DNA of 23,666 nucleotides. It comes from a virus. Of this stretch, positions 2,384 to 23,428 are shown in pieces. The notes below the pieces were generated by a model. It ran no database searches. It had not been told where the DNA came from and was given only the letters and a program-made list of their open reading frames with translations. Each line of letters starts with the position of its first letter. Within the stretch, counting starts at the first letter, position 1. Where the stretch lies: the IMG/VR virus record IMGVR_UViG_3300031758_000576, positions 1 to 23,666 of that record, one strand, 5' to 3'. The position numbers and the translations under genes are program-made.

Positions 2384-4510
2384 ATGTCTATAGATAGAAT
2401 AATTTCCTTTCATATTGAAAAACAGTTCCCCGCGATATACAGAGAGCAGGGGCACGAGTTAGTCGACTTTGTAAAACAGTACTACAAATTCTTAGAAGAA
2501 AACTCAAGTCAGTCTATATACAATGGAAGAAGATTGTTTGAGTATAGGGATATAGATACTACTCTAGAAAGAATGTTAATCTTTTTTAAGAATAAGTATC
2601 TTGCAGACCTTCCGTTCAATGACGATACGGTCAGAATAATCGTTAAAAATATTCTTGCTCTCTATAGAAGAAAGGGTACTCCTGGTGGGCTGGAACTATT
2701 CTTTCGTCTATTCTATAATGAATCTATAAAAATATATTACCCAGCGCGAGATATTTTTAAACCATCAGACTCACAATGGAAGCAAGGTAGCTTTCTTCAG
2801 CTAGCACCGAATGCTGGAGTGTTTACATCAACAAAATTATCCGGCGAGTTTAGCTATAACGACATTGTGAATAGGCCAATCATCGGCGCAGCCTCAAGAG
2901 CTCGTGCTACCGTTGATAAAATTAACTTTATCATAATAAACAATTCTTTTACTCCAATCATATTCATTAACGATGTCACTGGAGTCTTTATTGGTCTCGA
3001 AAATATCATATGCGAGATAAACGGTGTACCAGTTAACTTTGGAATCATCAACGGTTCTCTTACGTCTATAGACATAGATTTCCCTGGACCTGGCGGTAAC
3101 TCTCTTGGAGATTTGGTTACTATAAGTGGATCGCCCAATGGAATTGGCGCGACTGGTATCGTTACTGGTGTAACAGAAAGCACTACGGGTACGATAGAAT
3201 ATAACCTGTTAGACGGCGGCTGGGGATACAGCATAGATAGCGGCAGGCTTCTAGTTTCGGATCAACTCATCTTCGTTGATAACGCTTCAAGAAACTTTAA
3301 CCTTTTGGAAACCCTTGAAGACGACTCTGGAAACAGAGGGATTGTAGTCGCGCAGACCGATATTTTGGTTGCTGTGAAGATGGAAGCTAACTCTAGTTTT
3401 ACAAACACTTCAATCATAGAAACTGTAGATAGAAGCACAGTCATTGACATACAGACACTATCTTCGTTCCCTATAAGAGTGACTCCAAAGAATAGTACTT
3501 CTCCAGGGCCGCTATACCCTGACACCGCGAATACAAGTAGCGTTATTGTGGGAGAGATTACAAATACTGAAAACGTAGCTCTCATATTTGATATCATTGG
3601 CGATTACGCAAACGTGCATCTAGATTCTTCGAATTATAATGATGTTCCTCCTGCGTTATCACCCATGTCAGGAAATACGGATCCTGTAACCATTTCTACA
3701 ACACTACAAGATGCGTTTAATCTGGAGAGGTTTGACATCGGAACGATCGTTAGATTTGAAAATATAGATCCTGGCATAAATTACGTAAACGACGCGTATG
3801 CTCTACCGTATGACTCTAGAATTAATCTTCTTCAAAGAAAGAACCAGCTCGTAACTCTCCAGACAGTTCCTACGGCACTCAATATAGGTGACGAAATAAC
3901 TCAGGGATCGTTTAGAGGAAAGGTTCTTGCAATTACCGATAAAACACTTACTGTAAGACCGTATAGGTATTATGGCTTTAACTCAACAACACCGATCACA
4001 TTCGGTGGAACGAATTTCAATGTAGTAGCAGTATCATATGATTTTTCAAGCAGTGATGTTGCCGGAAGAAATGCGGTGATGGAAGCTGAGACAGATTTTG
4101 CTGTTGGAAGAATTAGCCGCGTAAACATTATTGATTCAGGCTACGGCTACGTTCATAACACGGTTGCGGATGTTTTAAAAAATGGTGAGCTCGTTTCTAG
4201 AGGAACTATTTCAGCAAGAGGGCAAGGATCCACTGGAGGATTCTGGTCCACGTATAATTCTCATTTAAGTGGATACGTTTCGAAAAATGAAAGTTTGGAA
4301 TACTATTCACCTGGAAAATATATACAAGATAGCGATTACTATCAGGAATATTCTTACGAGATACAATCAAGACTTGATACACCAACTTATGAGCAATCGC
4401 TCAAAGAGACTGCTCACGTGGCTGGAACAAAAGTGTTCGGAAGATTTAATCTTGAAGAAGTTATTTCTACTCCAATATCTTCCAGAATAGAAATTATACC
4501 ACCCGTGTGA
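2384..4510 (+). CDS. 7: Baseplate wedge initiator, gp7-like
   Basis: 708 residues, placed between gp6 and gp8 exactly where T4 has gp7 (1032 residues). Residues 15-40 (an A-I-Y-R segment and F-V-K-Q-Y-Y-K-F-L), 97-120 (K-G-T-P-G-G-L-E-L-F-F-R-L-F-Y-N-E) and 650-690 (D-Y-Y-Q-x-Y-S-Y-E-I, then H-V-A-G) line up by eye with three segments of the C-terminal part of T4 gp7. The large N-terminal portion of T4 gp7 has no counterpart. Residues about 130-640 are a beta-rich insertion with recurring G-x-G-Y turns (279-282, 586-589). In T4, gp7 starts wedge assembly by binding gp10 and then gp8 and gp6. The gp7 call is good from synteny plus motifs, but overall similarity is low. Confidence 0.78.
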   Translation: MSIDRIISFHIEKQFPAIYREQGHELVDFVKQYYKFLEENSSQSIYNGRRLFEYRDIDTTLERMLIFFKNKYLADLPFNDDTVRIIVKNILALYRRKGTPGGLELFFRLFYNESIKIYYPARDIFKPSDSQWKQGSFLQLAPNAGVFTSTKLSGEFSYNDIVNRPIIGAASRARATVDKINFIIINNSFTPIIFINDVTGVFIGLENIICEINGVPVNFGIINGSLTSIDIDFPGPGGNSLGDLVTISGSPNGIGATGIVTGVTESTTGTIEYNLLDGGWGYSIDSGRLLVSDQLIFVDNASRNFNLLETLEDDSGNRGIVVAQTDILVAVKMEANSSFTNTSIIETVDRSTVIDIQTLSSFPIRVTPKNSTSPGPLYPDTANTSSVIVGEITNTENVALIFDIIGDYANVHLDSSNYNDVPPALSPMSGNTDPVTISTTLQDAFNLERFDIGTIVRFENIDPGINYVNDAYALPYDSRINLLQRKNQLVTLQTVPTALNIGDEITQGSFRGKVLAITDKTLTVRPYRYYGFNSTTPITFGGTNFNVVAVSYDFSSSDVAGRNAVMEAETDFAVGRISRVNIIDSGYGYVHNTVADVLKNGELVSRGTISARGQGSTGGFWSTYNSHLSGYVSKNESLEYYSPGKYIQDSDYYQEYSYEIQSRLDTPTYEQSLKETAHVAGTKVFGRFNLEEVISTPISSRIEIIPPV

Positions 4511-4550: not shown

Positions 4551-6218
4551 ATGACAATAATCACTAGTAAGTATAGGACGGACACAACTCGTCGTTTTGT
4601 AGACGACGTTTATTCGAACGATTACTATCTTTTTATCTCTAGTGTTTCAAACACTACATTTTCAAACACAAATGACTCAAAGTTAACTTTTTTAGAAAAG
4701 ACTTTGTTTGGAAAACAAATATTGCCAGAAAATGTTTTTTATATGATAAAGAATCATATATGGGTAACTGGTACAGTATACGAACAGTATGACGATAAGC
4801 AAGAAATATCGAATAAAAAATATTACGCGGTCGTGTATCCGCAGAACAATGAAACCGGTGATTATAAGATATATAAGTGTTTGTTTAATAACTACGGAGA
4901 GCCTTCAACAAATCCGCCGAACTATAATACCTCAACACCAAATCAAGTGTATGAAATGCCAGATGGATACGTTTGGAAATATCTATACACGATTAGCGTT
5001 TCTGACTTTGATAAGTATAATTCTAGAGGTTACATTCCGATATTTTTGTCTGAAGCAAACTCTTCTGTATCAGACACAAGCTCAGTAGATCAAATATTTG
5101 TAGAGAACCCAGCGGAAAATTCTGGATACGAAAAAGTTTTAGGAACGATAGATGAAGTTCTTGGTGGCACGCAAAATACCGTAACTATTATTCCTTCTGC
5201 AGCCGGAACTCTAAGCGCGATTGAAAACTACTATTCAGGTTACACATTCTATGTAACTAACGCAATAAATGAATCGCAAGTGTATGAAGTAGATAAGTAT
5301 GTGTTTAATCCTTCTACTGGAAAGGCGATTATTACTTTAGTAGAAGGAATTCCTGTAGACGGTGTTCTAGTGAATTCGGCTGGTTTCATCTTACTTCCTA
5401 GAGTAGAAATAAGAGGGGATGGAACCGGCGCCGTCGCAATACCAAACGTTTCGACGAACGGAGTCATCACAAGTATTACTATTCTAAATAAAGGTTCTGG
5501 ATATACAAGAGCTGTCGCAAGAGTTCCTGATCCATTTGCATTCGATCCAACAACTTTAAATTCTTTAGATGAAAGAGTGATACTAAGACCTGTTATATCT
5601 ACACCTGGCGGACATGGATCTGATTTGGTTGATGAGTTATCATGCCGTCACGTTTTATTATACACAGAAATAACTCAAAACGATAATCTACTAATACCAA
5701 CTACAAATGAGTATCGTAGTGTAGGCGTGGTTAGAAACCCTGATTTTAAAGTTTTTCCTTATCCAACGGTGTTCGATAATCGTATAGAAGTTGCTTTGGA
5801 TACTAATCCGTTTTTTGTAAATGAAACTGTGACGCAGATAGAAACAAGTAACACGAGCAGTATTTTCTTTAATGAAACTCGTTTTTCAGCAAAAGTTCAC
5901 GCTGTTTCTGGAAACTTTGCTTACCTAGCAGAATATTCCGGCCCGTTTCCGAACGACGTAGGAACATACGCAAATAATGATTTTAGTGATATATCTTTGG
6001 ATGCTACTTTACCACTAGTTTCTTCTCTGAACCAATTAGTCACGATAAATATAGATAATAACCCAAGCTATGGAAGTGGGTATAGTTCTACTTATCCTGG
6101 ATTTAAATTATCGCCATATATTCAAAGAACCGGTGAAGTTTACTATATAAGTCAATTTCCTCCTATCACTAGAACAGCAAACGCAAGAGAACAGTATAAA
6201 ATCGTTCTTGAATTTTAA
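4551..6218 (+). CDS. 8: Baseplate wedge protein gp8
   Basis: 555 residues against 334 for T4 gp8. The N-terminal I-I-T-S-K-Y-R-T (3-10), the central P-D-G-Y-V-W-K-Y-L-Y (137-146) and the C-terminal G-E-V-Y-Y-I-S-Q-F-P-P (from 528) match the corresponding T4 landmarks (T-S-K-F-R-T, G-D-G-Y-V-W-E-Y-L-F, G-E-M-I-Y-M-E-N-R-P-P). gp8 is a dimeric wedge component joining gp7 and gp6. The extra length falls after residue 165 and includes a beta module with a G-S-G-Y turn at 315-318, like those in the gp7-like protein. It has its own late promoter and a GAGGTAG ribosome site five bases from the ATG, so it may begin a separate late transcript that runs into the DUF4815 gene. Confidence 0.9.
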   Translation: MTIITSKYRTDTTRRFVDDVYSNDYYLFISSVSNTTFSNTNDSKLTFLEKTLFGKQILPENVFYMIKNHIWVTGTVYEQYDDKQEISNKKYYAVVYPQNNETGDYKIYKCLFNNYGEPSTNPPNYNTSTPNQVYEMPDGYVWKYLYTISVSDFDKYNSRGYIPIFLSEANSSVSDTSSVDQIFVENPAENSGYEKVLGTIDEVLGGTQNTVTIIPSAAGTLSAIENYYSGYTFYVTNAINESQVYEVDKYVFNPSTGKAIITLVEGIPVDGVLVNSAGFILLPRVEIRGDGTGAVAIPNVSTNGVITSITILNKGSGYTRAVARVPDPFAFDPTTLNSLDERVILRPVISTPGGHGSDLVDELSCRHVLLYTEITQNDNLLIPTTNEYRSVGVVRNPDFKVFPYPTVFDNRIEVALDTNPFFVNETVTQIETSNTSSIFFNETRFSAKVHAVSGNFAYLAEYSGPFPNDVGTYANNDFSDISLDATLPLVSSLNQLVTINIDNNPSYGSGYSSTYPGFKLSPYIQRTGEVYYISQFPPITRTANAREQYKIVLEF

Positions 6219-13176: not shown

Positions 13177-16100
13177 ATGACAAAAATTTCAGATCTTGAT
13201 GGGATTTCAGGCGATAAGACGAAATCAAGAGATCTCTTTGTCGTTGTTAACTTGGATCAAGGTGATGATGGCACAAAGAACATCACCCGCGCAGAACTCA
13301 TAAATTCTTTAGAAGAAGAAGTATTTGATAATATCAAGATAGAAGGCGGTTATATTAGAGATATTCCTATAACCGATCCAAACATAACGGTTACCGAAAC
13401 TCTATCTGGCGATATAGCTCCTACTGATTATTTCTACTTAAAGGACATATCTTCAGGAACTACTGTTGCGTTTTCTTACTCGCAGCTATACAACGAGATC
13501 GCAAAGTCTTCAAAGAAGGCTAGAAAGATATATGTAAGCGTTGAAGGTGATGACGATAACATAGGTAGTTATCTAGCTCCGGTAGCAACTCTTGAAAGAG
13601 CCGTTCGTATTGCTCAGGAAGCTTCCGAAGAAGTTGCACCAGGTTTATTAGGAAGACGAATAGTCAACATCACGGTTCATCCAGGAACGTATTATACAAA
13701 CGGTGAGTTAGCGTTACCGGACTTCTGTTCAATAGTTTCATCGACTGGCCAGTACACTACAAATATTGTAATGAACCCTGGATACGAGTCAAAGAATTGC
13801 ATTCTCTTAGGATCTGGGTGCTATGCGCAAGGATTTTCTTTCTTTAATCTTAAAGTAGATAACTTTGATTATCCTAGTTCTGGTTTTGCGTATGCGTTTA
13901 GACCTGGCGCAAGAATTACTAGATCACCTTACGTTAGAGACTCAAGCCAGATCTCAAACTACTTTGAAAGAGAGATACCACCTCTCTTAAATCCGTTTAA
14001 CAGCCGAGGAACGATTGAAGACCTCGGATTCGAACTTACAGTTTCAAACGTTTCATCGAATACTGATTTCCAAGTTGGAGACTCGATAGAAACTAGCGAT
14101 GGCGTAACTGGATTTATTTCAAGAGTTGAAGAGATTGGAACTGGAACTATATATGTTAGAAATAATAATGTAGATTTCACGGCCAATACAACAATCACGA
14201 CATCGTCGGGCGGCACCGCAACAATAACTGTCGTTGGAGAAGAAGACTTTCCAAACAAGAACGTAGGTCGTGGAGGTGGGACGATACTCGCCGACCGAGC
14301 AGTTGTTGACCCAGATTCTATATTTCCATATATACTATGCTTTGGCGCTACTCCTCGTACTCAGAACGGTCTAGGATACGTTGCAAAGAACGGCGCTGGC
14401 ATTAATGGTATCTCTTCTCTATCTATATTTTCTAGATGCGCGTTCTATGCGTTAGACGGTGGACAGATAACACTTAACAACTCCGGAACTCAGTTCGGCG
14501 ACATCTCTATGAGAGCAAAGGGAACCACTCCTGTGTTCAATCCTAGAGAGACATCAGTAACTAGAGTTGCGAACGTAGAGCTAGCCGATACAATTATAAA
14601 CTCATCAAACACCGTGATAGACGACCTATGGGAGTATTTAACGGACACTCTAGGATTCCAGGGGTACGACTCCGAAAAATGTAAGAGAGACACCAGATAC
14701 ATTCTAGAGGGTGTAGGGAACGATCTCGTACTAGGAACAAACTATTGGGCGGTTGTAAATGGAATTTCTTATAGAAGAGCAAGTTCTAGCATTGTAATTA
14801 GCAGCCAGCTCACAGAAACATCTGGAGCAATATCTTTTCTAAAATCTTCGGTTCAGAACCTTCTCGAGGATGCAACTAGCGTTTCTAGAACAAACGCTGC
14901 TTTTGATGAAATTATAGATATCCTGACGAATGGAACCGGAAACGCGAATGCTCTTACATTCACGAATACCGGAGTCACAAACCACGCAATAGCCAGAGAT
15001 CTGTTGGTAGCTAATAAAACTAAAATACAAAACGATCTGATTACTTGGATAAACACAAATTATCCTTCTCTTGTGTATAACCAAACGACTTGCAGAAGAG
15101 ACACCGGGTACGTAATAGACGCGTTAACACACGATTTAAACTATAACACAAACACTGCTACTATACTCAATGCTGAGGCTTATTTTGTTGGTACATCAAG
15201 CCAACTTCCTTTAAACCAAAGAGAACCAACCGCCGCGGCATGGAACAGACTTGGTGAGATATGCTCATCAATAATGTTGGGTACGTATACAGGACAGAGC
15301 ACGGCCCCAGGTATTGCTTCTCAGAACGAAGCAAACAGATGTATAGAACTAGCTAATATCTTAAGAAATGTTATAAAGTATAACTCTCTTACTTATTTAC
15401 CAGCTGCTGAGGAACCGGATCTGTCTTGGGTAAATAATACTTTCTCCAACAGCCGAGAAATAATAAACGATAATATCACAAATCTGCAGAAAACCACGAT
15501 CGCATATGTAAATTCTGAGTATGACTTTATCGATGAAAATCTTACAAGAAGAGACGCTCTGAACTTCTTACGTTCCATCACTAATGACTTTAGAGAAGGA
15601 ACACAAACAGGTACTCGCATCTTTACAGCTGGGCTCTTTAATTATAGAGGAAGACATGTTTTCTCTGTATTTAATCCAACTACCATTGGATTGAACTACA
15701 TTGGAAGTGTGGCCGGGCCAAATACAACGAATTTACCGGCCGGATCTACAGTCGAGATTAATGACGCATATATCGTATATTCTAGCATAGCAAATATATA
15801 CGATGGAACCATTTACTATTGGAACGGTTCTGCTTGGACTTCTGATGGTGCAAATGATATATCTCTCTTAAACGCTTTCACAAATTCGTGGGATCGTATG
15901 AGAGATACTATTAAGAGCCAGTTCTCTCTAACTGCTGGCGAAGAAGCGATGCTTGACGGTCTTATCGATGATGTTCTAATAGCAAGTGTAAGAAATCCTC
16001 TTATCATTAACTTTGGAAGCTTAGTAGAAAGTCTATCTCACCAGTTTAACCTTGCTAGCGCTGGTGTTAACGTAAACGCGCTTCCTCTAAACTTTAGAAG

Positions 16101-16308
16101 ACTAGGACAGCCGATATCTGCTGCTGCGTCCGTTCTCCAAGAAGACGGAGGACGAGTAAGATGGTCCGGCGCGGACGAGTTGAACAACCAGTATTTTGCA
16201 AGAGGTCTTAGAATCAACGGTAGAACCGGAAGAATCGAAGGTCGCCCATTTACATCTTCAGTTAGGAAATTAGCTCGCAGAGCCGCAAATAGTAGGACAT
16301 CAACATGA
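13177..16308 (+). CDS. Large tail fibre, beta-helix type
   Basis: 1043 residues. The N-terminus (I-S-D-L-D-G-I at 4-10) resembles fibre attachment segments. Residues 118-145 contain I-Y-V-S-V-E-G-D-D-D-N and P-V-A-T-L-E-R-A-V, the entry motif of pectate-lyase-like right-handed beta-helices. The helix continues to about 480, interrupted near 288-355 by a small beta insertion. A second region holds three related segments: C-K-R-D-T at 502, C-R-R-D-T at 639 and T-R-R-D-A at 790, each followed by hydrophobic residues and D-L or D-F. The C-terminus is basic (R-K-L-A-R-R-A). A host-recognition or long tail-fibre role is inferred from fold and location; no enzymatic active site is evident. It has its own late promoter and a good ribosome site. 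The stop overlaps the next gene as ATGA. Confidence 0.8.
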   Translation: MTKISDLDGISGDKTKSRDLFVVVNLDQGDDGTKNITRAELINSLEEEVFDNIKIEGGYIRDIPITDPNITVTETLSGDIAPTDYFYLKDISSGTTVAFSYSQLYNEIAKSSKKARKIYVSVEGDDDNIGSYLAPVATLERAVRIAQEASEEVAPGLLGRRIVNITVHPGTYYTNGELALPDFCSIVSSTGQYTTNIVMNPGYESKNCILLGSGCYAQGFSFFNLKVDNFDYPSSGFAYAFRPGARITRSPYVRDSSQISNYFEREIPPLLNPFNSRGTIEDLGFELTVSNVSSNTDFQVGDSIETSDGVTGFISRVEEIGTGTIYVRNNNVDFTANTTITTSSGGTATITVVGEEDFPNKNVGRGGGTILADRAVVDPDSIFPYILCFGATPRTQNGLGYVAKNGAGINGISSLSIFSRCAFYALDGGQITLNNSGTQFGDISMRAKGTTPVFNPRETSVTRVANVELADTIINSSNTVIDDLWEYLTDTLGFQGYDSEKCKRDTRYILEGVGNDLVLGTNYWAVVNGISYRRASSSIVISSQLTETSGAISFLKSSVQNLLEDATSVSRTNAAFDEIIDILTNGTGNANALTFTNTGVTNHAIARDLLVANKTKIQNDLITWINTNYPSLVYNQTTCRRDTGYVIDALTHDLNYNTNTATILNAEAYFVGTSSQLPLNQREPTAAAWNRLGEICSSIMLGTYTGQSTAPGIASQNEANRCIELANILRNVIKYNSLTYLPAAEEPDLSWVNNTFSNSREIINDNITNLQKTTIAYVNSEYDFIDENLTRRDALNFLRSITNDFREGTQTGTRIFTAGLFNYRGRHVFSVFNPTTIGLNYIGSVAGPNTTNLPAGSTVEINDAYIVYSSIANIYDGTIYYWNGSAWTSDGANDISLLNAFTNSWDRMRDTIKSQFSLTAGEEAMLDGLIDDVLIASVRNPLIINFGSLVESLSHQFNLASAGVNVNALPLNFRRLGQPISAAASVLQEDGGRVRWSGADELNNQYFARGLRINGRTGRIEGRPFTSSVRKLARRAANSRTST

Positions 16309-16727
16309 CAACTATCATATCAACAAGTCAAGCGCCTGACGCAAAACCAATAGGTCTTAGTGTTGCGTTGACAACGAACTGGCAACCAATTATAGAAGTT
16401 CCTAGTTATGAAATACCAGAACTTGTCTTTGGAGGCAGCACGGTAGTAGTTCCAGGTGTTGCCGAGATCATAACTCCACTTCTTATTGCAAACAGAGACA
16501 TACAGACTGTAGACGTAAGTGTAAGGATATATCGCGCAAGTTCAAACACTACGTTCTGGCTAGCGAATGAAATTCCGGTGCCTAAATTCGATGTCATTGC
16601 GTATCCTATGAATGGTCAGTTCATATATACTGGCGATATACTCGAAGTAAAAGCCACGACCAACAATACAGTCGATGTGACTATATCATATACGTTGGGT
16701 CAGGCGGAGGAAGACGATGTCTCTTAA
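16305..16727 (+). CDS. Small beta-rich virion-associated protein
   Basis: 140 residues, starting in a four-base overlap with the beta-helix fibre and ending 11 bases into the next gene. The sequence alternates hydrophobic and polar residues, with no long helix, Cys or membrane segment. It looks like a small beta-sandwich, with landmarks P-I-G-L-S-V, G-G-S-T-V-V-V-P-G and N-G-Q-F-I-Y-T-G-D. It ends in Y-T-L-G-Q-A-E-E-D-D-V. It is locked by overlaps between two fibre genes, so it is likely made with them as a fibre accessory, adaptor or assembly helper. I do not recognise a named family. Confidence 0.75.
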   Translation: MTTIISTSQAPDAKPIGLSVALTTNWQPIIEVPSYEIPELVFGGSTVVVPGVAEIITPLLIANRDIQTVDVSVRIYRASSNTTFWLANEIPVPKFDVIAYPMNGQFIYTGDILEVKATTNNTVDVTISYTLGQAEEDDVS

Positions 16728-19425
16728 AAGTATACGCGGAGCACAATTAACTCCGACTCGTTTATTTGACACTCCAGTCCCTATCACACTGGATCCAGTT
16801 GCGTTCCAGTTTACGGTAGTATATGGGCAGGATGGAAATCTTTATACTTCTGATGGAATTACCTGGAACATAGCTACAGCCACGCAAGGTATTCAGGGTA
16901 TTCAGGGTAGCCAAGGTGTTCAGGGTAACTATGGCCCATCTCTCGTTGTGATTGGGACGATCGCTACTGTAGGTGCAACACCTCAGACCGCGCTAAATGC
17001 TGCGTTTCCAGGAGCTGCAGTCGGTGAAGGTGTTATTGATGAAACTACTCAAGATTTTTGGGTATACAACGGTACAAATTGGATTAATGCAGGCCCAATC
17101 GCTGGTGTTCAAGGTGTTCAAGGTGTTCAGGGTGTTCAGGGTACGCAGGGAACGCAAGGCCGCCAAGGTATTCAGGGTATTCAAGGTACAGTTGGGCAGG
17201 GTACACAGGGTTTCCAAGGTATTCAGGGAAATCAAGGCGTTCAGGGTATTCAAGGTACTGCTATCCAAGGTATTCAGGGTATCCAAGGTATTCAGGGTAG
17301 CCAAGGTGTTCAAGGTATCCAAGGTATAGATGGAACTCTTGGCGCAAAAGGCGATCAGGGTATTCAAGGTATTACAGGATCACAAGGTATCCAAGGTAGC
17401 CAAGGCATTCAAGGTATTCAGGGTACTTCTATCCAAGGTATTCAGGGTATTCAAGGTAACCAAGGCGTTCAGGGCATTCAGGGTACTGCCATCCAAGGTA
17501 TTCAGGGTATCCAAGGTATTCAGGGTATCACTGGCGAACAAGGTATTCAGGGTGCGATGGCTGCTCGCGCATCTGTCGAAATTAGCGCTACTCCACCGTC
17601 TAGCCCAGGAATTGGTGACCTTTGGTGGGATCCGGAAAGCGGTGAACTCTATGTTTATTACGATGACGGCGATACTATTCAATGGGTAGAATCTACAAGC
17701 GTATTTGGCGTCCAAGGTAGTCAAGGTGTTCAGGGTATTCAGGGTACTGCCATCCAAGGTATTCAGGGTATAGCTGGAACTGGATCGCAGGGCGTTCAAG
17801 GTAACGCAGGTTCTCAGGGTGTTCAGGGTATTACTGGAGCGCAGGGTATCCAAGGTATTACCGGATCGCAAGGTGTTCAGGGTATCTCTGGATCGCAAGG
17901 TATCCAAGGTATCCAGGGTATTGAAGGAGAAGGTGTTCAGGGTATCCAAGGCATCGCTGGATCTCAAGGTGTTCAAGGTATTACTGGAGCACAGGGTATC
18001 CAAGGTATTGAAGGAGAAGGTGTTCAGGGTATCCAAGGCATCGCTGGATCACAAGGTGTTCAGGGTATCACTGGAGAAGGTACACAAGGTTCTCAAGGTA
18101 TCACTGGATCGCAAGGTGTTCAGGGTATCTCTGGATCGCAAGGTATCCAAGGTATCCAAGGTATTGAAGGAGAAGGTGTTCAAGGTATTCAGGGTATCGT
18201 TGGCGAACAAGGTGTTCAGGGTATCACTGGAGCAGGTACACAAGGTTCTCAAGGTATCACTGGATCGCAAGGTGTTCAAGGTATTCAGGGTATCGTTGGC
18301 GAACAAGGCGTTCAGGGTACTGGTGGCGCCGGTGAACAGGGCGTACAAGGTATTACCGGATCGCAAGGCATACAAGGTATCACTGGAGATCAAGGTGTTC
18401 AAGGTACAGGTGGCGCCGGCGAACAAGGCGTTCAAGGTATCACTGGCGAACAGGGTATCCAAGGTATTACTGGCGAACAGGGTGTTCAGGGTATAACTGG
18501 ATCTCAAGGCGTTCAAGGTATTACTGGAGAACAGGGTATCCAAGGTATCGCTGGAACTGGTTCTCAAGGTGTTCAGGGTATATCTGGTGAACAGGGAATA
18601 CAGGGTATCACTGGTGAACAGGGCATCCAAGGTATCACTGGAGCACAAGGTGTTCAGGGTATCCAAGGTATCACTGGTGAACAGGGAATACAGGGTATCA
18701 CTGGAGATCAAGGTGTTCAAGGTACTGGGGGTGCTGGAGAGCAAGGTGTCCAAGGTATCACTGGATCTCAAGGCATTCAGGGTATTACTGGCGCAGGATC
18801 ACAAGGTGTTCAGGGTATCACTGGTGAACAAGGCATTCAGGGTATCACTGGTGAACAAGGTGTTCAGGGTATCACTGGTGAACAAGGCGTACAGGGTATC
18901 ACCGGATCTCAAGGTACGCAAGGAACCGGAGCTCAAGGTATTCAGGGTATCACAGGCTCTCAAGGAGTTCAGGGTATTCAAGGCCCGGAGTCTGCTTCTG
19001 CTTCAGCAACAGATCTTCAAGCAACAAATGATACTTCGACGAACGCAAGCTTCTATCCTGTGTTTGTAGCTAACGTTGGCTCCGTTCAGACTGTTAATGC
19101 GGCCGATAGTAAGTTATATTTCAATCCAAGCACTGGAACACTCAACGCGACAAACTTTAACTCTCTTTCTGATATTGCGCATAAGAAGAATCTCAACCCA
19201 ATTTCTGAAAGCCTGGACATCTTAAGTAAGATAAACACGTACGAATTTAATTGGAAGAGCAACGATATAAAGAGTTACGGTGTAATCGCTCAAGAGTTTG
19301 AAAAGATTATGCCTGAACTCGTAGAAACAAATGGAAATGGAGATAAGACGGTGGCTTATATACCGCTCATTGCTATCATGATTGATGCAATAAAGAAATT
19401 AGGAGAGAGAAATGGCAGCATTTGA
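16717..19425 (+). CDS. Collagen-like tail fibre with S74 chaperone
   Basis: 902 residues. Residues 1-57 are a non-collagen head. Gly-X-Y triplets occupy 57-71, 130-280 and 331-757, mostly G-I-Q, G-V-Q, G-S-Q, G-I-T and G-E-Q. Two short globular insertions separate them: 72-129, and 281-330 with the L-W-W-D and E-L-Y-V-Y-Y motif seen in many phage fibres. The last ~85 residues are a Peptidase_S74 chaperone, S-D-I-A-H-K starting at Ser818 with the partner Lys823 at +5, then V-I-A-Q-E-F-E. The expected product is a long trimeric rod whose tail is cut off after folding. The ribosome site GGAGG (16706-16710) is strong. The collagen part has no proline before position 757 and frequent triplet breaks. 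Open frames on both strands across this repeat are artefacts. Confidence 0.88.
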   Translation: MSLKSIRGAQLTPTRLFDTPVPITLDPVAFQFTVVYGQDGNLYTSDGITWNIATATQGIQGIQGSQGVQGNYGPSLVVIGTIATVGATPQTALNAAFPGAAVGEGVIDETTQDFWVYNGTNWINAGPIAGVQGVQGVQGVQGTQGTQGRQGIQGIQGTVGQGTQGFQGIQGNQGVQGIQGTAIQGIQGIQGIQGSQGVQGIQGIDGTLGAKGDQGIQGITGSQGIQGSQGIQGIQGTSIQGIQGIQGNQGVQGIQGTAIQGIQGIQGIQGITGEQGIQGAMAARASVEISATPPSSPGIGDLWWDPESGELYVYYDDGDTIQWVESTSVFGVQGSQGVQGIQGTAIQGIQGIAGTGSQGVQGNAGSQGVQGITGAQGIQGITGSQGVQGISGSQGIQGIQGIEGEGVQGIQGIAGSQGVQGITGAQGIQGIEGEGVQGIQGIAGSQGVQGITGEGTQGSQGITGSQGVQGISGSQGIQGIQGIEGEGVQGIQGIVGEQGVQGITGAGTQGSQGITGSQGVQGIQGIVGEQGVQGTGGAGEQGVQGITGSQGIQGITGDQGVQGTGGAGEQGVQGITGEQGIQGITGEQGVQGITGSQGVQGITGEQGIQGIAGTGSQGVQGISGEQGIQGITGEQGIQGITGAQGVQGIQGITGEQGIQGITGDQGVQGTGGAGEQGVQGITGSQGIQGITGAGSQGVQGITGEQGIQGITGEQGVQGITGEQGVQGITGSQGTQGTGAQGIQGITGSQGVQGIQGPESASASATDLQATNDTSTNASFYPVFVANVGSVQTVNAADSKLYFNPSTGTLNATNFNSLSDIAHKKNLNPISESLDILSKINTYEFNWKSNDIKSYGVIAQEFEKIMPELVETNGNGDKTVAYIPLIAIMIDAIKKLGERNGSI
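17104..17556. repeat. First main collagen-coding nonamer array
   Basis: Imperfect tandem 9-base units of the type GGTATTCAG and GGTGTTCAA, coding G-I-Q and G-V-Q triplets (residues 130-280 of the 902-residue fibre). A smaller patch of the same units precedes it at 16885-16929. Units are kept in phase with the reading frame, apart from breaks such as G-T-A-I-Q and G-T-S-I-Q where one glycine is skipped. Confidence 0.9.
17707..18987. repeat. Second, longer collagen-coding nonamer array
   Basis: About 1.28 kb of imperfect 9-base units coding residues 331-757, with higher-order duplications. One example is an identical 47-base block at 17917-17963 and 18004-18050, 87 bases (29 codons) apart. Gains or losses of such blocks would stay in frame. 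Confidence 0.9.
18901..18953 (+). repeat. 53-base direct repeat, copy 1
   Basis: Begins ACCGGATCTCAAGGTACGCA and is identical over 53 bases to 19856-19908. It codes residues 729-746 of the 902-residue fibre and starts on a codon boundary. Flanking bases remain similar but not identical. Confidence 0.9.
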
Positions 19426-20248
19426 TTTTCCTACGTCTCCAACGAACGGCCAGCTCTATGCTTTAAACGGTAGAACCTATCAATACAACGCAGCTAAGCA
19501 AAGATGGGATGGTTTTACAGTAAATGGCGCGCAAGGTATCCAAGGTATCACTGGTGAGCAAGGCATCCAAGGCATTTCCGGAAATCAGGGCGTCCAAGGT
19601 ATTCAGGGTACCGGGGGTGCAGGTGAACAGGGTGTTCAAGGCATTACTGGATCTCAAGGTATCCAAGGTATCGCTGGTTCTATAGCTTCGCAAGGCGTGC
19701 AAGGCATTCAGGGTATCGAAGGCGCGGGCGGGCAGGGTGTTCAAGGTACTACTGGATCTCAAGGTATCCAAGGCATCGCGGGTGCCGTAGCTTCACAGGG
19801 TGTACAAGGTATTCAAGGAACCAGTGGGGCAGGATCTCAAGGCGTTCAGGGTATTACCGGATCTCAAGGTACGCAAGGAACCGGAGCTCAAGGTATTCAG
19901 GGTATCACCGGATCTCAAGGTATAACTGGTGTATCCGGTGCAAACACGGTTCCTGCTGCAGGAACCAAGACGTCTTCTTACACATTAGCAGCTGGAGATG
20001 TAGGAGATTTTGTTGCTATAGGATCCGGCGGTAGCATCGTAATACCAAGCGGTGTGTTTTCAACTGGCGATATAATTTCAATTTTCAATAATACTTCATC
20101 AAATGCGACAATTACTTCTTCTGCAGTAACTTCATATATTTCTGGCGCTGACACTGACGTTTCGAGTATCACCTTGTTTACAAGAGGTCTCTGCACGATC
20201 TTGTTCGTAGGTACAAACATCTGTGTAGTCTCTGGTGCAGTTTCGTAA
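19412..20248 (+). CDS. Second collagen-like fibre with beta-rich tip
   Basis: 278 residues, starting 14 bases inside the previous gene, with AGGAGAGAGA (19401-19410) as ribosome site. Residues 1-38 form a short head (N-G-Q-L-Y, Y-N-A-A-K-Q-R-W). Residues 39-176 are Gly-X-Y triplets closely related to those of the 902-residue fibre, including a 53-base identical block. Residues 177-278 are a compact beta domain (S-Y-T-L-A-A-G-D-V-G-D-F, G-G-S-I-V-I-P, F-N-N-T-S-S-N) of a type often found at the ends of phage fibres. It lacks an S74 chaperone, so it either trimerises through the tip itself or pairs with the 902-residue fibre. Its last base is the first base of the next ATG. A short fibre or receptor-binding tip role is inferred. 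Confidence 0.85.
   Translation: MAAFDFPTSPTNGQLYALNGRTYQYNAAKQRWDGFTVNGAQGIQGITGEQGIQGISGNQGVQGIQGTGGAGEQGVQGITGSQGIQGIAGSIASQGVQGIQGIEGAGGQGVQGTTGSQGIQGIAGAVASQGVQGIQGTSGAGSQGVQGITGSQGTQGTGAQGIQGITGSQGITGVSGANTVPAAGTKTSSYTLAAGDVGDFVAIGSGGSIVIPSGVFSTGDIISIFNNTSSNATITSSAVTSYISGADTDVSSITLFTRGLCTILFVGTNICVVSGAVS
19526..19939. repeat. Collagen-coding nonamer array of second fibre
   Basis: Imperfect 9-base units coding residues 39-176 of the 278-residue fibre. Units and longer blocks are shared with the arrays in the preceding gene. Confidence 0.88.
19856..19908 (+). repeat. 53-base direct repeat, copy 2
   Basis: Identical to 18901-18953, 955 bases downstream. It codes residues 149-166 of the 278-residue fibre and begins on a codon boundary, so it has the same codon phase as copy 1. 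Confidence 0.9.
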
Positions 20249-22266
20249 TGTCAATTGGAAATCTAAATATGCTCTTGGGAACGACTGCTTATCTTAGTAG
20301 TTATAGTATTAGTTCCTCGGCCGCTTCTATCAATGAAGGAAATACCGTCACTGTTACCGTAAGCGCAAGGGTCCCGGATAGTACTACTGTAGGATATACG
20401 GTCACTGGAGTAAATGCAGAAGATCTATCACGGAGTACAACAGGTACATTTACGCTTACAAGTAATCAAGGCATATTAGATTTCCCAACACTAATAAACG
20501 ACGATATGGAAATATTCCTAGCCGTTGAGCCACTCAGTGGTTCTAATCTTAGTGTTGTTAAGTATAGAACAACGGCAGATCTGCAAAGCCCAGTACTTGA
20601 AGGGCAATACTTTTACCCGGTCGGTAGCAGTCAAAGAGCTAGTTCGATATTTTTTAAACCAGACGGTGAAAAATTTTGGTTACTAGACAATAATAATGAT
20701 GAAATTGCTGAGTTCAGTATGACACCCGAACCAAGCGTGGATCAATGGGATCTCAGCACGGTTGTTGCTGGACCAGTTGATCCCTACAGTACACTTGGAA
20801 CGAATCACCAAGGTCTTTGGATTTCGAGTAGCGGTACACAACTATTTCAAACTGATCGTGCTTTAAGCAGAATAATACAGGATACAATAACTGCGTGGAA
20901 TCCAACCTTTTCACTTGGCCCACAGAGTCCAGAGAGAACCTTGGACATATCGGCAACCGCAAGCCTTCCTACTGGAATACACGTAAAACCGGATGGAACG
21001 AAGGCATTCGTAGCAGACGTATCAAATCCGACACTAGGTTCTCCTGGTGCAATTTTAGCATACTCTGGTACTGCGTTTCAGTGTAACACTTGGACATTTT
21101 CTACATCGTTAGCAGTAGGTTATTTTCCGCTTGATGTGCGCGTGAATGATACTGGTACTAAAATGTACACGGTTGGAGACAATAGAATAATATATTACTA
21201 TACGTTAAGTACTCCTTGGGACTTAAGCACGGCGACGTTAGTATCGTCTCTAAATCTATCCGCATCGTATAGTCTAATTCAAGGAATTTATATTGCAAAT
21301 CCTGCATCAGAAACATTTAGACTTACACTCGACGCAACGGACAGTATAGGTAATCAAACCGGATCGAAGTTCGTAGATGTAGTCATAAATGATTATGTTA
21401 CGCCAGGATTTCAACTTTTTTCTACTCCTGGTACCACAACATTTACTGTCCCTAATGACGTTACTAGTGTAAACGTGGTTGCTATCGGTGGGGGCGGTGG
21501 CGGACAGATTAGCCGAGGAACATCTGGTGGTGGTGAAGTACCTGCTAGCGGCGGCGGCGGGGGCGGTCTCGGCTGGAAAAACAATATTGCTGTTACACCT
21601 GGAAGTACTTATACAGTCCTCGTTGGGCAAGGTGGTGCTGGGGCCACTATAGTTGGAGACCAGCTTTCGACTACCGTAAACGGTAGTCCTGGATTTGATA
21701 GTTATTTTATAAGCTCCGGCACGGTTAAGGGTGGATTCGGTGGCGGCGGCGATTCTGATGGAGGATCTGCCGGGACGTTTACTGGCGATGGGGGCGGGAA
21801 TGGCGGTGTAGGGCAGACTCGATCTTCTGGTTATGATGGCGGGGGCGGCGGCGGGGCGGGCGGTTATTCTGGAAACGGCGGCGGCGCAACTAGCGGTCAA
21901 GGAAATAATCCAGCAACAAATTCTGGAGGAGGGGGTGCCGGTGCGAGTAGAGAATATAGCCCAGACATTTCCGGCGGATTTATTTCGGAAGGCGGTGACG
22001 GCGGCGGAGTAGGTGCTCACGGTAAGGGCTCTGACGGAGTAGGAGGCGGGGCGACACAGATTAGTGGAGGTACAACAGCTCCTAGCGGAACTGCCGGCAG
22101 TTTTGGTTCTAGTCAAACTTATGGGGGCGGCGGCGGCGGAGCTATGTACGCTTACTTTGACAGTGGTGCTACACGAACTGCTTCTTCAGGAAGCCCTGGC
22201 GCTGTTCTTATAAGATGGGGCACCGGCACGACGTTCCCTGATTATAAAAATCCTGCATCATACTAA
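20248..22266 (+). CDS. Propeller and Gly-rich adhesin, fibre-tip protein
   Basis: 672 residues, starting in a one-base TAATG overlap with no clear ribosome site, so it probably relies on coupling. Residues 23-110 look like an Ig-like or Calx-beta domain (I-N-E-G-N-T-V-T-V-T-V). Residues 115-340 carry four similar hairpins, F-K-P-D-G-E-K-F-W (136), S-S-S-G-T-Q-L-F (193), V-K-P-D-G-T-K-A-F (246) and N-D-T-G-T-K-M-Y (300), plus W-D-L-S-T twice, as in phage beta-propellers. Residues 354-383 resemble the closing strands of an Ig-like domain. From about 388, F-S-T-P-G-T-T-T-F-T-V-P opens a Gly-rich domain with runs of five or six Gly to about 640. It ends in L-I-R-W-G. Gly-rich parts of this sort form polyglycine-II tips in T4-like adhesins (gp38 of S16 type). 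Host-receptor binding is inferred. Confidence 0.82.
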   Translation: MSIGNLNMLLGTTAYLSSYSISSSAASINEGNTVTVTVSARVPDSTTVGYTVTGVNAEDLSRSTTGTFTLTSNQGILDFPTLINDDMEIFLAVEPLSGSNLSVVKYRTTADLQSPVLEGQYFYPVGSSQRASSIFFKPDGEKFWLLDNNNDEIAEFSMTPEPSVDQWDLSTVVAGPVDPYSTLGTNHQGLWISSSGTQLFQTDRALSRIIQDTITAWNPTFSLGPQSPERTLDISATASLPTGIHVKPDGTKAFVADVSNPTLGSPGAILAYSGTAFQCNTWTFSTSLAVGYFPLDVRVNDTGTKMYTVGDNRIIYYYTLSTPWDLSTATLVSSLNLSASYSLIQGIYIANPASETFRLTLDATDSIGNQTGSKFVDVVINDYVTPGFQLFSTPGTTTFTVPNDVTSVNVVAIGGGGGGQISRGTSGGGEVPASGGGGGGLGWKNNIAVTPGSTYTVLVGQGGAGATIVGDQLSTTVNGSPGFDSYFISSGTVKGGFGGGGDSDGGSAGTFTGDGGGNGGVGQTRSSGYDGGGGGGAGGYSGNGGGATSGQGNNPATNSGGGGAGASREYSPDISGGFISEGGDGGGVGAHGKGSDGVGGGATQISGGTTAPSGTAGSFGSSQTYGGGGGGAMYAYFDSGATRTASSGSPGAVLIRWGTGTTFPDYKNPASY

Positions 22267-22292
22267 ATGGATTTAAGTATTCGAGATCAATT

Positions 22293-22300
22293 TATAAATA
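22293..22300 (+). promoter_or_regulatory. T4-type late promoter in the 22267-22420 gap
   Basis: Exact TATAAATA, 27 bases after the adhesin stop codon. It is followed by a strong ribosome site GGGAG at 22315-22319 that serves the micro-ORF at 22329 rather than the longer gene at 22421. Confidence 0.8.
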
Positions 22301-22328
22301 GTTAAGATACACAAGGGAGATCTTGAGA

Positions 22329-22420: not shown

Positions 22421-23428
22421 ATGGCATACATAATAAAAGGCACTACTGTTATAAGTGATGCGGGCGCGATTGATTCTGCGCAGAGTAAGATAATTGCGAA
22501 CAGCTCGTTGGCGCTCGAAGAAGCTATAGTATATTCACCAGTGCAAGGTAGTACGAGTGGATATACATCAGGTGGAGAAATTGCAAGCCTTAACTATGTG
22601 AATACTATCGACAAGTTTCCGTTTGCGGCAGACGGAAATGCTACCGATGTTGGTGATCTAACAGCACCAGCTCGTCGAGCAGCAGCAGGTCAATCAAGCG
22701 CTGAGTCTGGGTATACTTCAGGCGGTCAATCGCCAATACTTAACACAATTGATAAGTTTCCGTTTGCAGCTAATGCTAATGCCACTGACGTCGGTGATCT
22801 TACACAAGCAAGAGCCGCCCCTGCCGGCCAATCTAGTGACGTAAGCGGTTATACATCTGGCGGAGTGACTGGGCCTACTTACGTTAACACTATAGATAAG
22901 TTTCCTTTTGCTGCAAATGCCAACGCAACAGACGTTGGTGATCTTACACAAGAAAGAGTAAACGTTGCCGGCCAATCTAGTGACGTAAGCGGTTATACAT
23001 CTGGGGGATTTAATCTTTCTACTCTTGTTAACACTATATTCAAGTTTCCTTTTGCATCTAACGGTAATGCCACAGACGTTGGTGATCTTACACAAGCAAG
23101 ACTAAGCTCTGCCGGCCAATCTAGTGACGTAAGCGGTTATACTTCTGGAGGACTTGACCCAGGAATTACTCCTCCTCCTACTCTTGTTAACACTATAGAC
23201 AAGTTTCCCTTTGCGACAGACGCCAATGCTACTGACGTGGGTGATCTTACACAATCAAGGTTTGGCCCGGCAGGTCAATCAAGTACAGAATCTGGCTACA
23301 ATTCAGGCGGGGTCTTGCCTGCGTACGCAAACACTATTGACAAATTTTCATTCGCGGCAAACGCCAATGCTACTGACGTAGGAGACCTTACACAAGCAAG
23401 ACTTTACGCAGCAGGTCAACAGGTATAA
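22421..23428 (+). CDS. Six-repeat propeller-like fibre protein
   Basis: 335 residues. The N-terminal 46 residues (M-A-Y-I-I-K-G-T-T-V-I) look like a fibre attachment segment. Then six units of 46-53 residues start at 47, 97, 143, 191, 239 and 292, each with G-Y-x-S-G-G, N-T-I-x-K-F-x-F-A, N-A-T-D-V-G-D-L-T and (in units 1-5) A-G-Q-S-S. The last unit ends at A-G-Q-Q-V. The pattern is Kelch-like: a Gly-Gly turn and an aromatic strand per unit, which fits a six-bladed beta-propeller. Such repeats are common in fibre-like proteins of aquatic phages; a receptor-binding role is inferred. The ribosome site is poor, so translation may depend on the upstream micro-ORF. The stop codon lies inside the next late promoter. 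Confidence 0.8.
   Translation: MAYIIKGTTVISDAGAIDSAQSKIIANSSLALEEAIVYSPVQGSTSGYTSGGEIASLNYVNTIDKFPFAADGNATDVGDLTAPARRAAAGQSSAESGYTSGGQSPILNTIDKFPFAANANATDVGDLTQARAAPAGQSSDVSGYTSGGVTGPTYVNTIDKFPFAANANATDVGDLTQERVNVAGQSSDVSGYTSGGFNLSTLVNTIFKFPFASNGNATDVGDLTQARLSSAGQSSDVSGYTSGGLDPGITPPPTLVNTIDKFPFATDANATDVGDLTQSRFGPAGQSSTESGYNSGGVLPAYANTIDKFSFAANANATDVGDLTQARLYAAGQQV
22559..23428. repeat. Six tandem propeller-blade repeats
   Basis: Unit starts at 22559, 22709, 22847, 22991, 23135 and 23294; lengths 150, 138, 144, 144, 159 and 135 bases. A 33-base block starting TGCCGGCCAATCTAGTGACG is identical at 22822-22854, 22966-22998 and 23110-23142, exactly 144 bases apart, which points to recent duplication or gene conversion among units 2 to 5. 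Confidence 0.9.

Follow-up and report, generated by a model that had tools for sequence, protein, structure and literature searches.

The virus record IMGVR_UViG_3300031758_000576 of IMG/VR, from an uncultured phage (positions 1 to 23,666; hereafter the window, i.e., the whole 23.7 kb stretch of DNA that was analysed) carries two adjacent genes for collagen-like proteins that share an exact 53-base repeat, which is the subject of this study. Gene 1 (16717-19425) encodes a tail-fibre protein of 902 residues consisting of a head, collagen rods, a knob, and a terminal S74 (endosialidase-type) intramolecular chaperone, and gene 2 (19412-20248) encodes a protein of 278 residues with a head, a short collagen rod, and a C-terminal tip, without an S74 domain. 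Both genes, and all features described within them, lie on the plus strand. The collagen triple-helix repeat (PF01391) is present in both proteins; in Pfam searches, gene 1 matched Collagen (E = 2.1e-71) and Peptidase_S74 (PF13884; residues 818-869, E = 2.8e-13), and gene 2 matched Collagen alone (E = 3.5e-15), Peptidase_S74 not being found. We placed the rod ends at 18981 in gene 1 and 19936 in gene 2. In gene 1, the rod is followed by the knob (18982-19167, residues 756-817), which runs to the predicted S74 cut site, and then by the chaperone (19168-19425). The S74 domain of gene 1 starts with SDIAHK, and self-cleavage would be expected at the serine of this SD....K motif.

The two copies of the perfect direct repeat lie at 18901-18953 in gene 1 and at 19856-19908 in gene 2. 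Each begins at codon phase 0 of its own gene, its offset from the start codon (16717 and 19412, respectively) being a multiple of three, and the copies are spaced 955 bases apart. An original prediction, made from the window sequence, held that a single crossover between them would delete 955 bases, fuse the two genes into one open reading frame (ORF), and serve as a built-in host-range switch. The repeat, its phase, and the spacing were all as described, and the crossover product would indeed be a single continuous ORF of 858 residues (728 + 130) with no internal stop. The S74 domain within the deleted segment is not a separate gene but forms the C-terminal part of the 902-residue protein.

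An identity of this length exceeds what codon usage would yield by chance. When synonymous codons were permuted gene by gene so that both proteins stayed unchanged (1000 shuffles), the longest match between the two genes averaged 21.6 bases and reached 38 at most, so that 53 was attained in 0 of 1000 shuffles; we therefore conclude that DNA was copied. An exact 53-base repeat internal to gene 1, with copies at 17863-17915 and 18106-18158 (243 bases apart), gave a similar result under the same null model (mean 25.6, maximum 40, with 53 reached in none of 1000 shuffles). The two genes together contain 11 exact repeats of at least 30 bases, every one of them in frame; one is the cross-gene repeat, and the remaining ten are all within gene 1, at spacings of 54-318 bases. 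In an 89 kb contig of the same phage, which has four collagen genes, all 32 cross-gene runs considered (up to six per gene pair, each of at least 20 bases) were likewise in frame. Such repeats are in frame because they code for the same Gly-X-Y residues, and the phase of the 53-base repeat thus adds no information beyond this shared coding.

The 53-base identity is the core of a wider homologous tract of 83 bases (18883-18965 in gene 1 and 19838-19920 in gene 2), which is 95% identical between the genes; its four mismatches are silent when the codons are read, and similarity drops on either side of it. In each gene, the core stops ∼28 bases ahead of the rod end. Outside the 53-mer, the longest exact run common to gene 1 and gene 2 is 25 bases. 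No inverted pairs of at least 20 bases were found within 15500-21500, on which ground an invertible cassette was rejected, and no dedicated site-specific recombinase was identified among the window proteins scanned, which represent a subset of the ORFs of a genome fragment.

For comparison, we used five further IMG/VR contigs of the same phage, which are ∼99.9% identical to the window across most of the shared region (source records include 3300008448_000547, 3300008453_000027, 3300031787_000044, 3300031857_001106, and 3300008113_003915). The contigs from 3300008448_000547 and 3300008453_000027 agree in length and in their differences, and they may represent two assemblies of a single genome. 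Both copies of the 53-mer were retained, 955 bases apart, in all five contigs, and the fused junction was found in none of them. A scan of IMG/VR found the 53-mer in these five contigs and the window and in no other contig, and no contig of the GTDB genome collection matched it. Related genomes that invariably have two separate genes with diverged repeats were to count towards refuting the original prediction; two separate genes were found in all five contigs, but the repeats have not diverged, the 53-mer being unchanged in each.

Nor did any of the five contigs exhibit a length-changing crossover at the 11 exact repeats. One string, in 3300031857_001106, matched a deletion junction and was accounted for by substitutions at 17964 and 17976. 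These lie in a repeat region (17917-17981) whose first 47 bases (17917-17963) are repeated at 18004-18050; the two substitutions are 12 bases apart, both match the copy 87 bases downstream, and together they extend the identity from 47 to 65 bases in an aligned stretch free of insertions and deletions. Such a patch is conversion-like and may be the signature of non-crossover gene conversion, an assembly artefact being also possible. The sole length change in gene 1 or gene 2 among the five contigs is the loss of a 9-base unit (18139-18147) from 3300031787_000044, and the rods of the five contigs also carry a few single substitutions.

To place gene 1 among its relatives, we scanned with the 140-residue protein encoded directly 5' of it (16305-16727, plus strand), a synteny marker that located 52 related loci. 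Fragment L260 was left out, five loci were those of this phage, and 19 were cut by a contig end or lacked gene 1, leaving 27 loci with complete gene 1 orthologues (∼21 when orthologues with identities of 99.9% or more in the groups compared are counted once). A second collagen rod gene was not the next ORF (of at least 80 residues) at any of the 27, although at L215 that ORF was cut by the contig end; gene 2 thus looks like a local addition. The cassettes downstream of gene 1 vary among relatives. Neither the gene 2 tip (tblastn, E = 0.001) nor a fused form was found at any of the 27 complete loci. In 26 of the 27 orthologues, the segment beyond the rod grouped with the S74 end of gene 1 (blastp, E = 1e-5), an assignment made by clustering and not by Pfam; 25 did so directly and L223 by linkage, and in L220 the S74 domain is shortened. 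The sole exception was L222, where the rod has an end unrelated to S74, and a rod without S74 can thus exist at the gene 1 locus. The fused form is thus not among the states observed for the gene 1 locus, and the 955-base deletion would remove an end that is strongly retained. Related genomes were to be compared for the fused form; it was absent from both sets, and these counts (0 of 5, 0 of 27, and an S74-type end kept in 26 of 27) argue against a built-in host-range switch.

Some further observations concern the gene 1 loci themselves. A non-collagen module (TPPSSPGIGDLWWDPESGELYVYYDDGDTIQWVE) breaks the gene 1 rod at 17560-17690 of the window, and a similar module was seen in the fibre of L222. 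A family of repeat proteins (SGYTSGG...IDKFPFA...ATDVGDLT...AGQQV; 22421-23428 in the window, and also in L182 and L183) occurs in the relatives G012 and G014 as tandem cassettes, of 3 and 4 genes, that lie downstream of gene 1, and its members are possible variable adhesins. In the related contigs G009 and G006 (L185 ∼2040-2370 and L189 ∼2090-2400, respectively), the frame of the collagen-S74 gene is lost just after the rod; the two knob losses differ from each other and may reflect either hypervariable knobs or assembly breaks.

The tip of gene 2 (19937-20245) was modelled by AlphaFold2 as a compact beta domain, a prediction of high confidence (pLDDT 93.4, pTM 0.85). The model resembles the capsid spike of Pseudomonas phage Pa223 (PDB 9ny6, E = 3.5e-5), the only one of 55 PDB matches at E = 0.001 or better, as well as 198 predicted viral proteins (E ≤ 0.001), some of which are annotated as tail fibres. 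Searches of named phages by tblastn with gene 2 or its tip gave no match at the limits used. When the tip was compared by tblastn with 331 loci (L009-L339), homologues outside this phage were found at 17 of them; a genome-contig scan with gene 2 had also given collagen-like matches in bacterial contigs, and these were used solely as loci for the tip search. The 17 loci are not all independent, since L018, L019, and L023 are alike, as are L205, L206, and L207. In every case the tip lay at or near the C-terminus, its first residue being 90-104 residues from the stop, and a pattern test showed no S74 motif in any of the ORFs. Long collagen rods (330-627 rod residues) were present in seven of the 17 (L013, L029, L043, L054, L059, L060, and L087), of which L059 and L060 are near-duplicates with ORFs open at the 5' end; the other homologues had short rods or none, in ORFs of 124-354 residues. 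The architecture predicted for the fused product (i.e., a long collagen rod with a gene 2-type tip and no S74 domain) therefore does occur in other phages, and because such proteins exist, a fusion would not necessarily be a dead end. In one of these phages, L087 4273-6855 encodes an 860-residue collagen-rod protein with a gene 2-type tip and no S74, followed immediately by a second collagen gene.

There are also indications of exchange between fibre genes over longer distances. The DNA of the gene 1 knob is 87% identical to that of a same-phage paralogue at 49 kb, ∼18 kb downstream, compared with 68% identity to the syntenic gene of the relative G012. For the gene 1 chaperone, the corresponding identities are 68% to the same-phage paralogue and 58% to G012, and between G012 and G014 the chaperone is 98% identical and the knob 77%. 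This mosaic of knob and chaperone points to exchange in the past, one boundary of which lay close to the predicted cut site. Chaperone and knob seem to have separate histories at L182, L183, L181, and L179. The same-phage contig contains two further collagen fibre genes, one of 660 residues (L179 10252-12234, at 49 kb) and one of 1860 residues (L180 1807-7389, at 80-85 kb), which have exact in-frame runs with gene 1 of up to 40 and 36 bases, respectively.

A survey of 182 loci, including the window, gave 27 adjacent same-strand pairs of rod genes, of which eight were from this phage and 19 from other phages (17 without the duplicate contig L060). Exact runs of 50, 63, and 71 bases were found in three of the 19 pairs from other phages, the rest having runs of 34 bases or fewer. 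Because each of these three repeats was confined to its own contig, in two copies, no fused form was seen there either. A RecA-family match was present in two of the four records searched, namely the two larger relatives, and in neither of the two shorter records, both of which are of this phage; a capacity for homologous recombination is likely.

Tetart and colleagues reportedly found that the adhesin tips of T-even phages are swapped by crossover at short conserved motifs; this exchange is said to take place between phages, at glycine-rich motifs, and to involve no deletion between tandem genes. In our literature search, the only fusion of fibre genes recognised was that of T5-like phages, in which a large in-register deletion turned two neighbouring lateral tail-fibre genes, ltfA and ltfB, into a single ORF that combines the beginning of ltfA with the end of ltfB (PMC4728585). 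The DT530(1) fusion, which its authors ascribed to recombination between identical sequences, was weak, and a fusion selected in DT571/2, which carried one additional repeat of 19 residues, was active, had the specificity of LtfB, and grew on the host recognised by LtfB (PMC4728585). As with ltfA and ltfB (DT57C, DT571/2, and DT530), whose direct repeats are long, the locus described here has adjacent fibre genes with in-register direct repeats. However, the T5-like repeats lie in related C-terminal regions, whereas the repeat here is within the collagen rod; furthermore, S74 (pfam13884) is the terminal domain of either Ltf protein, and the T5-like fusion thus keeps a chaperone, whereas gene 2 has none (PMC4728585). 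Fused single-ORF recombinants, moreover, are known in that system, whereas none was found among the five same-phage contigs. Given this experimental precedent, the fusion of gene 1 and gene 2 by crossover is plausible and mechanistically reasonable. The original prediction was right as to its geometry, but its claim of a built-in switch is not supported.

Two other systems bear on the locus in part. In the Guarani virophage, spontaneous loss of 81-base collagen-like units from ORF8 was associated with host-range expansion according to PMC7242381, which also cites work on S. thermophilus phages suggesting collagen-like repeats as recombination hotspots, with a deletion in phage Sfi21. The likeness here is the loss of a collagen-like unit inside a gene; unlike the proposal for gene 1 and gene 2, the Guarani change as described there took place within one gene, without fusion or a swap of tips (PMC7242381). 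Side-tail-fibre proteins of E. coli prophages combine collagen segments with varying fibre end domains, which has been ascribed to recombination, but that exchange is between prophages, and a deletion between tandem genes is not described in the available text (PMC3368898).

We consider it probable that the shared repeat results from ordinary recombination between homologous collagen rods and that two separate genes are the form in which this locus is seen. Under this explanation, gene 1 (a long collagen rod with knob and S74 chaperone) and gene 2 (a shorter rod with a beta tip) would be tandem fibre genes whose Gly-X-Y codon arrays, homologous both within and between the genes, exchange short patches by homologous recombination. 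Such exchange would be mostly non-crossover gene conversion, with 9-base units lost or gained by slippage. The 53-base identity would then be the undiverged core of an 83-base patch that passed from one rod to the other close to their C-terminal ends, and we infer that patch copying made the 53-mer. Since Gly-X-Y codons inherently keep their phase when copied, no crossover at the patch would break the reading frame. A protein joining the long rod to the tip could thus emerge as a side effect and might even be functional, although we infer that such fusions are rare or not selected.

Several points weigh against this explanation. The 53-mer carries no mutation in any of the six sequences (the window and the five contigs). 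The same would be expected of a crossover site under maintenance, although this has little weight because the contigs differ so little. The position of the core, ∼28 bases before both rod ends, fits tip swapping better than it does a randomly placed patch and suggests a past exchange of rod ends. A long S74-free rod with a gene 2-type tip is, as noted, an existing architecture elsewhere. Short-read assembly could have created both the conversion-like patch and the missing 9-base unit as artefacts, and the contigs are consensus sequences, in which a minority of fused genomes would be invisible.

It is unlikely, in our estimation, that the repeat is instead a maintained recombination site, crossovers at which regularly yield a minority of genomes that carry the fused 858-residue fibre as a host-range reserve. 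The in-frame crossover geometry would suit such a site, as would the changed host range that followed fusion of adjacent fibre genes in T5-like phages (PMC4728585). The tip homologues (17 of 17 without the S74 motif and seven with a long collagen rod), the non-S74 end at the orthologous locus L222, and the RecA-family protein of the two larger relatives are also consistent with it. It is opposed by the lack of the fused form in the five contigs and 27 orthologous loci, by the lack of length-changing crossovers at the 11 repeats, and by retention of the S74-type end in all but one orthologue. Moreover, the deletion would permanently lose the gene 1 knob and chaperone and the gene 2 head in that genome. 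The stricter form of this proposal, in which selection keeps an active crossover site identical and a small fraction of the population has a single fused fibre, we regard as slightly more doubtful still; if it were true, one deletion would change fibre length and receptor together by joining the long rod to the gene 2 tip, which is independent of S74. The evidence does not support a programmed host-range switch.

We think it similarly improbable that gene 2 is a recent duplication or acquisition and that the 53-mer is a leftover of that event rather than of later conversion. Gene 2 does look recent, since none of the 27 complete orthologous loci has a second rod gene after gene 1, and in each of the two genes the shared patch is close to where the rod ends. 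However, the 53-mer is accompanied by no other exact shared run longer than 25 bases, and the heads and tips of the two proteins have no significant similarity (best blastp E = 1.2); on these grounds, the idea that gene 2 arose simply by duplication of gene 1 was rejected. Convergent coding of the same collagen-like peptide from a biased set of codons, to which the identical 28-residue peptide in both proteins might point, has practically no chance of being correct and was ruled out by the synonymous shuffles, the best of which fell 15 bases short.

Elsewhere in the window, four T4-like baseplate genes lie in series, annotated with PHROGs as baseplate wedge subunits (180-596, 598-2382, 2384-4510, and 4551-6218). 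The closest named phages for the 594-residue wedge protein are Sinorhizobium phages (e.g., phiM12 and phiM19, 41% identity), and megablast of the window against named phages gave no match. In 3300008113_003915 (L009), 81 bases corresponding to window positions 22238-22318 are gone from the 3' end of a gene for a 672-residue glycine-rich protein, leaving a 665-residue protein with a different C-terminus; the ends of this deletion show no microhomology.

If fusions do occur at this locus, collagen rods would act as in-frame joints for reshuffling tips between tandem fibres. That principle is already established for T5-like fibres, and the locus would extend it to fibres of the collagen type in a T4-like phage. 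For now, its value is mainly as a modest natural case of how repeats in a fibre rod change among strains, and also of what appears to be an exchange of knobs between fibre genes that lie far apart in one phage.

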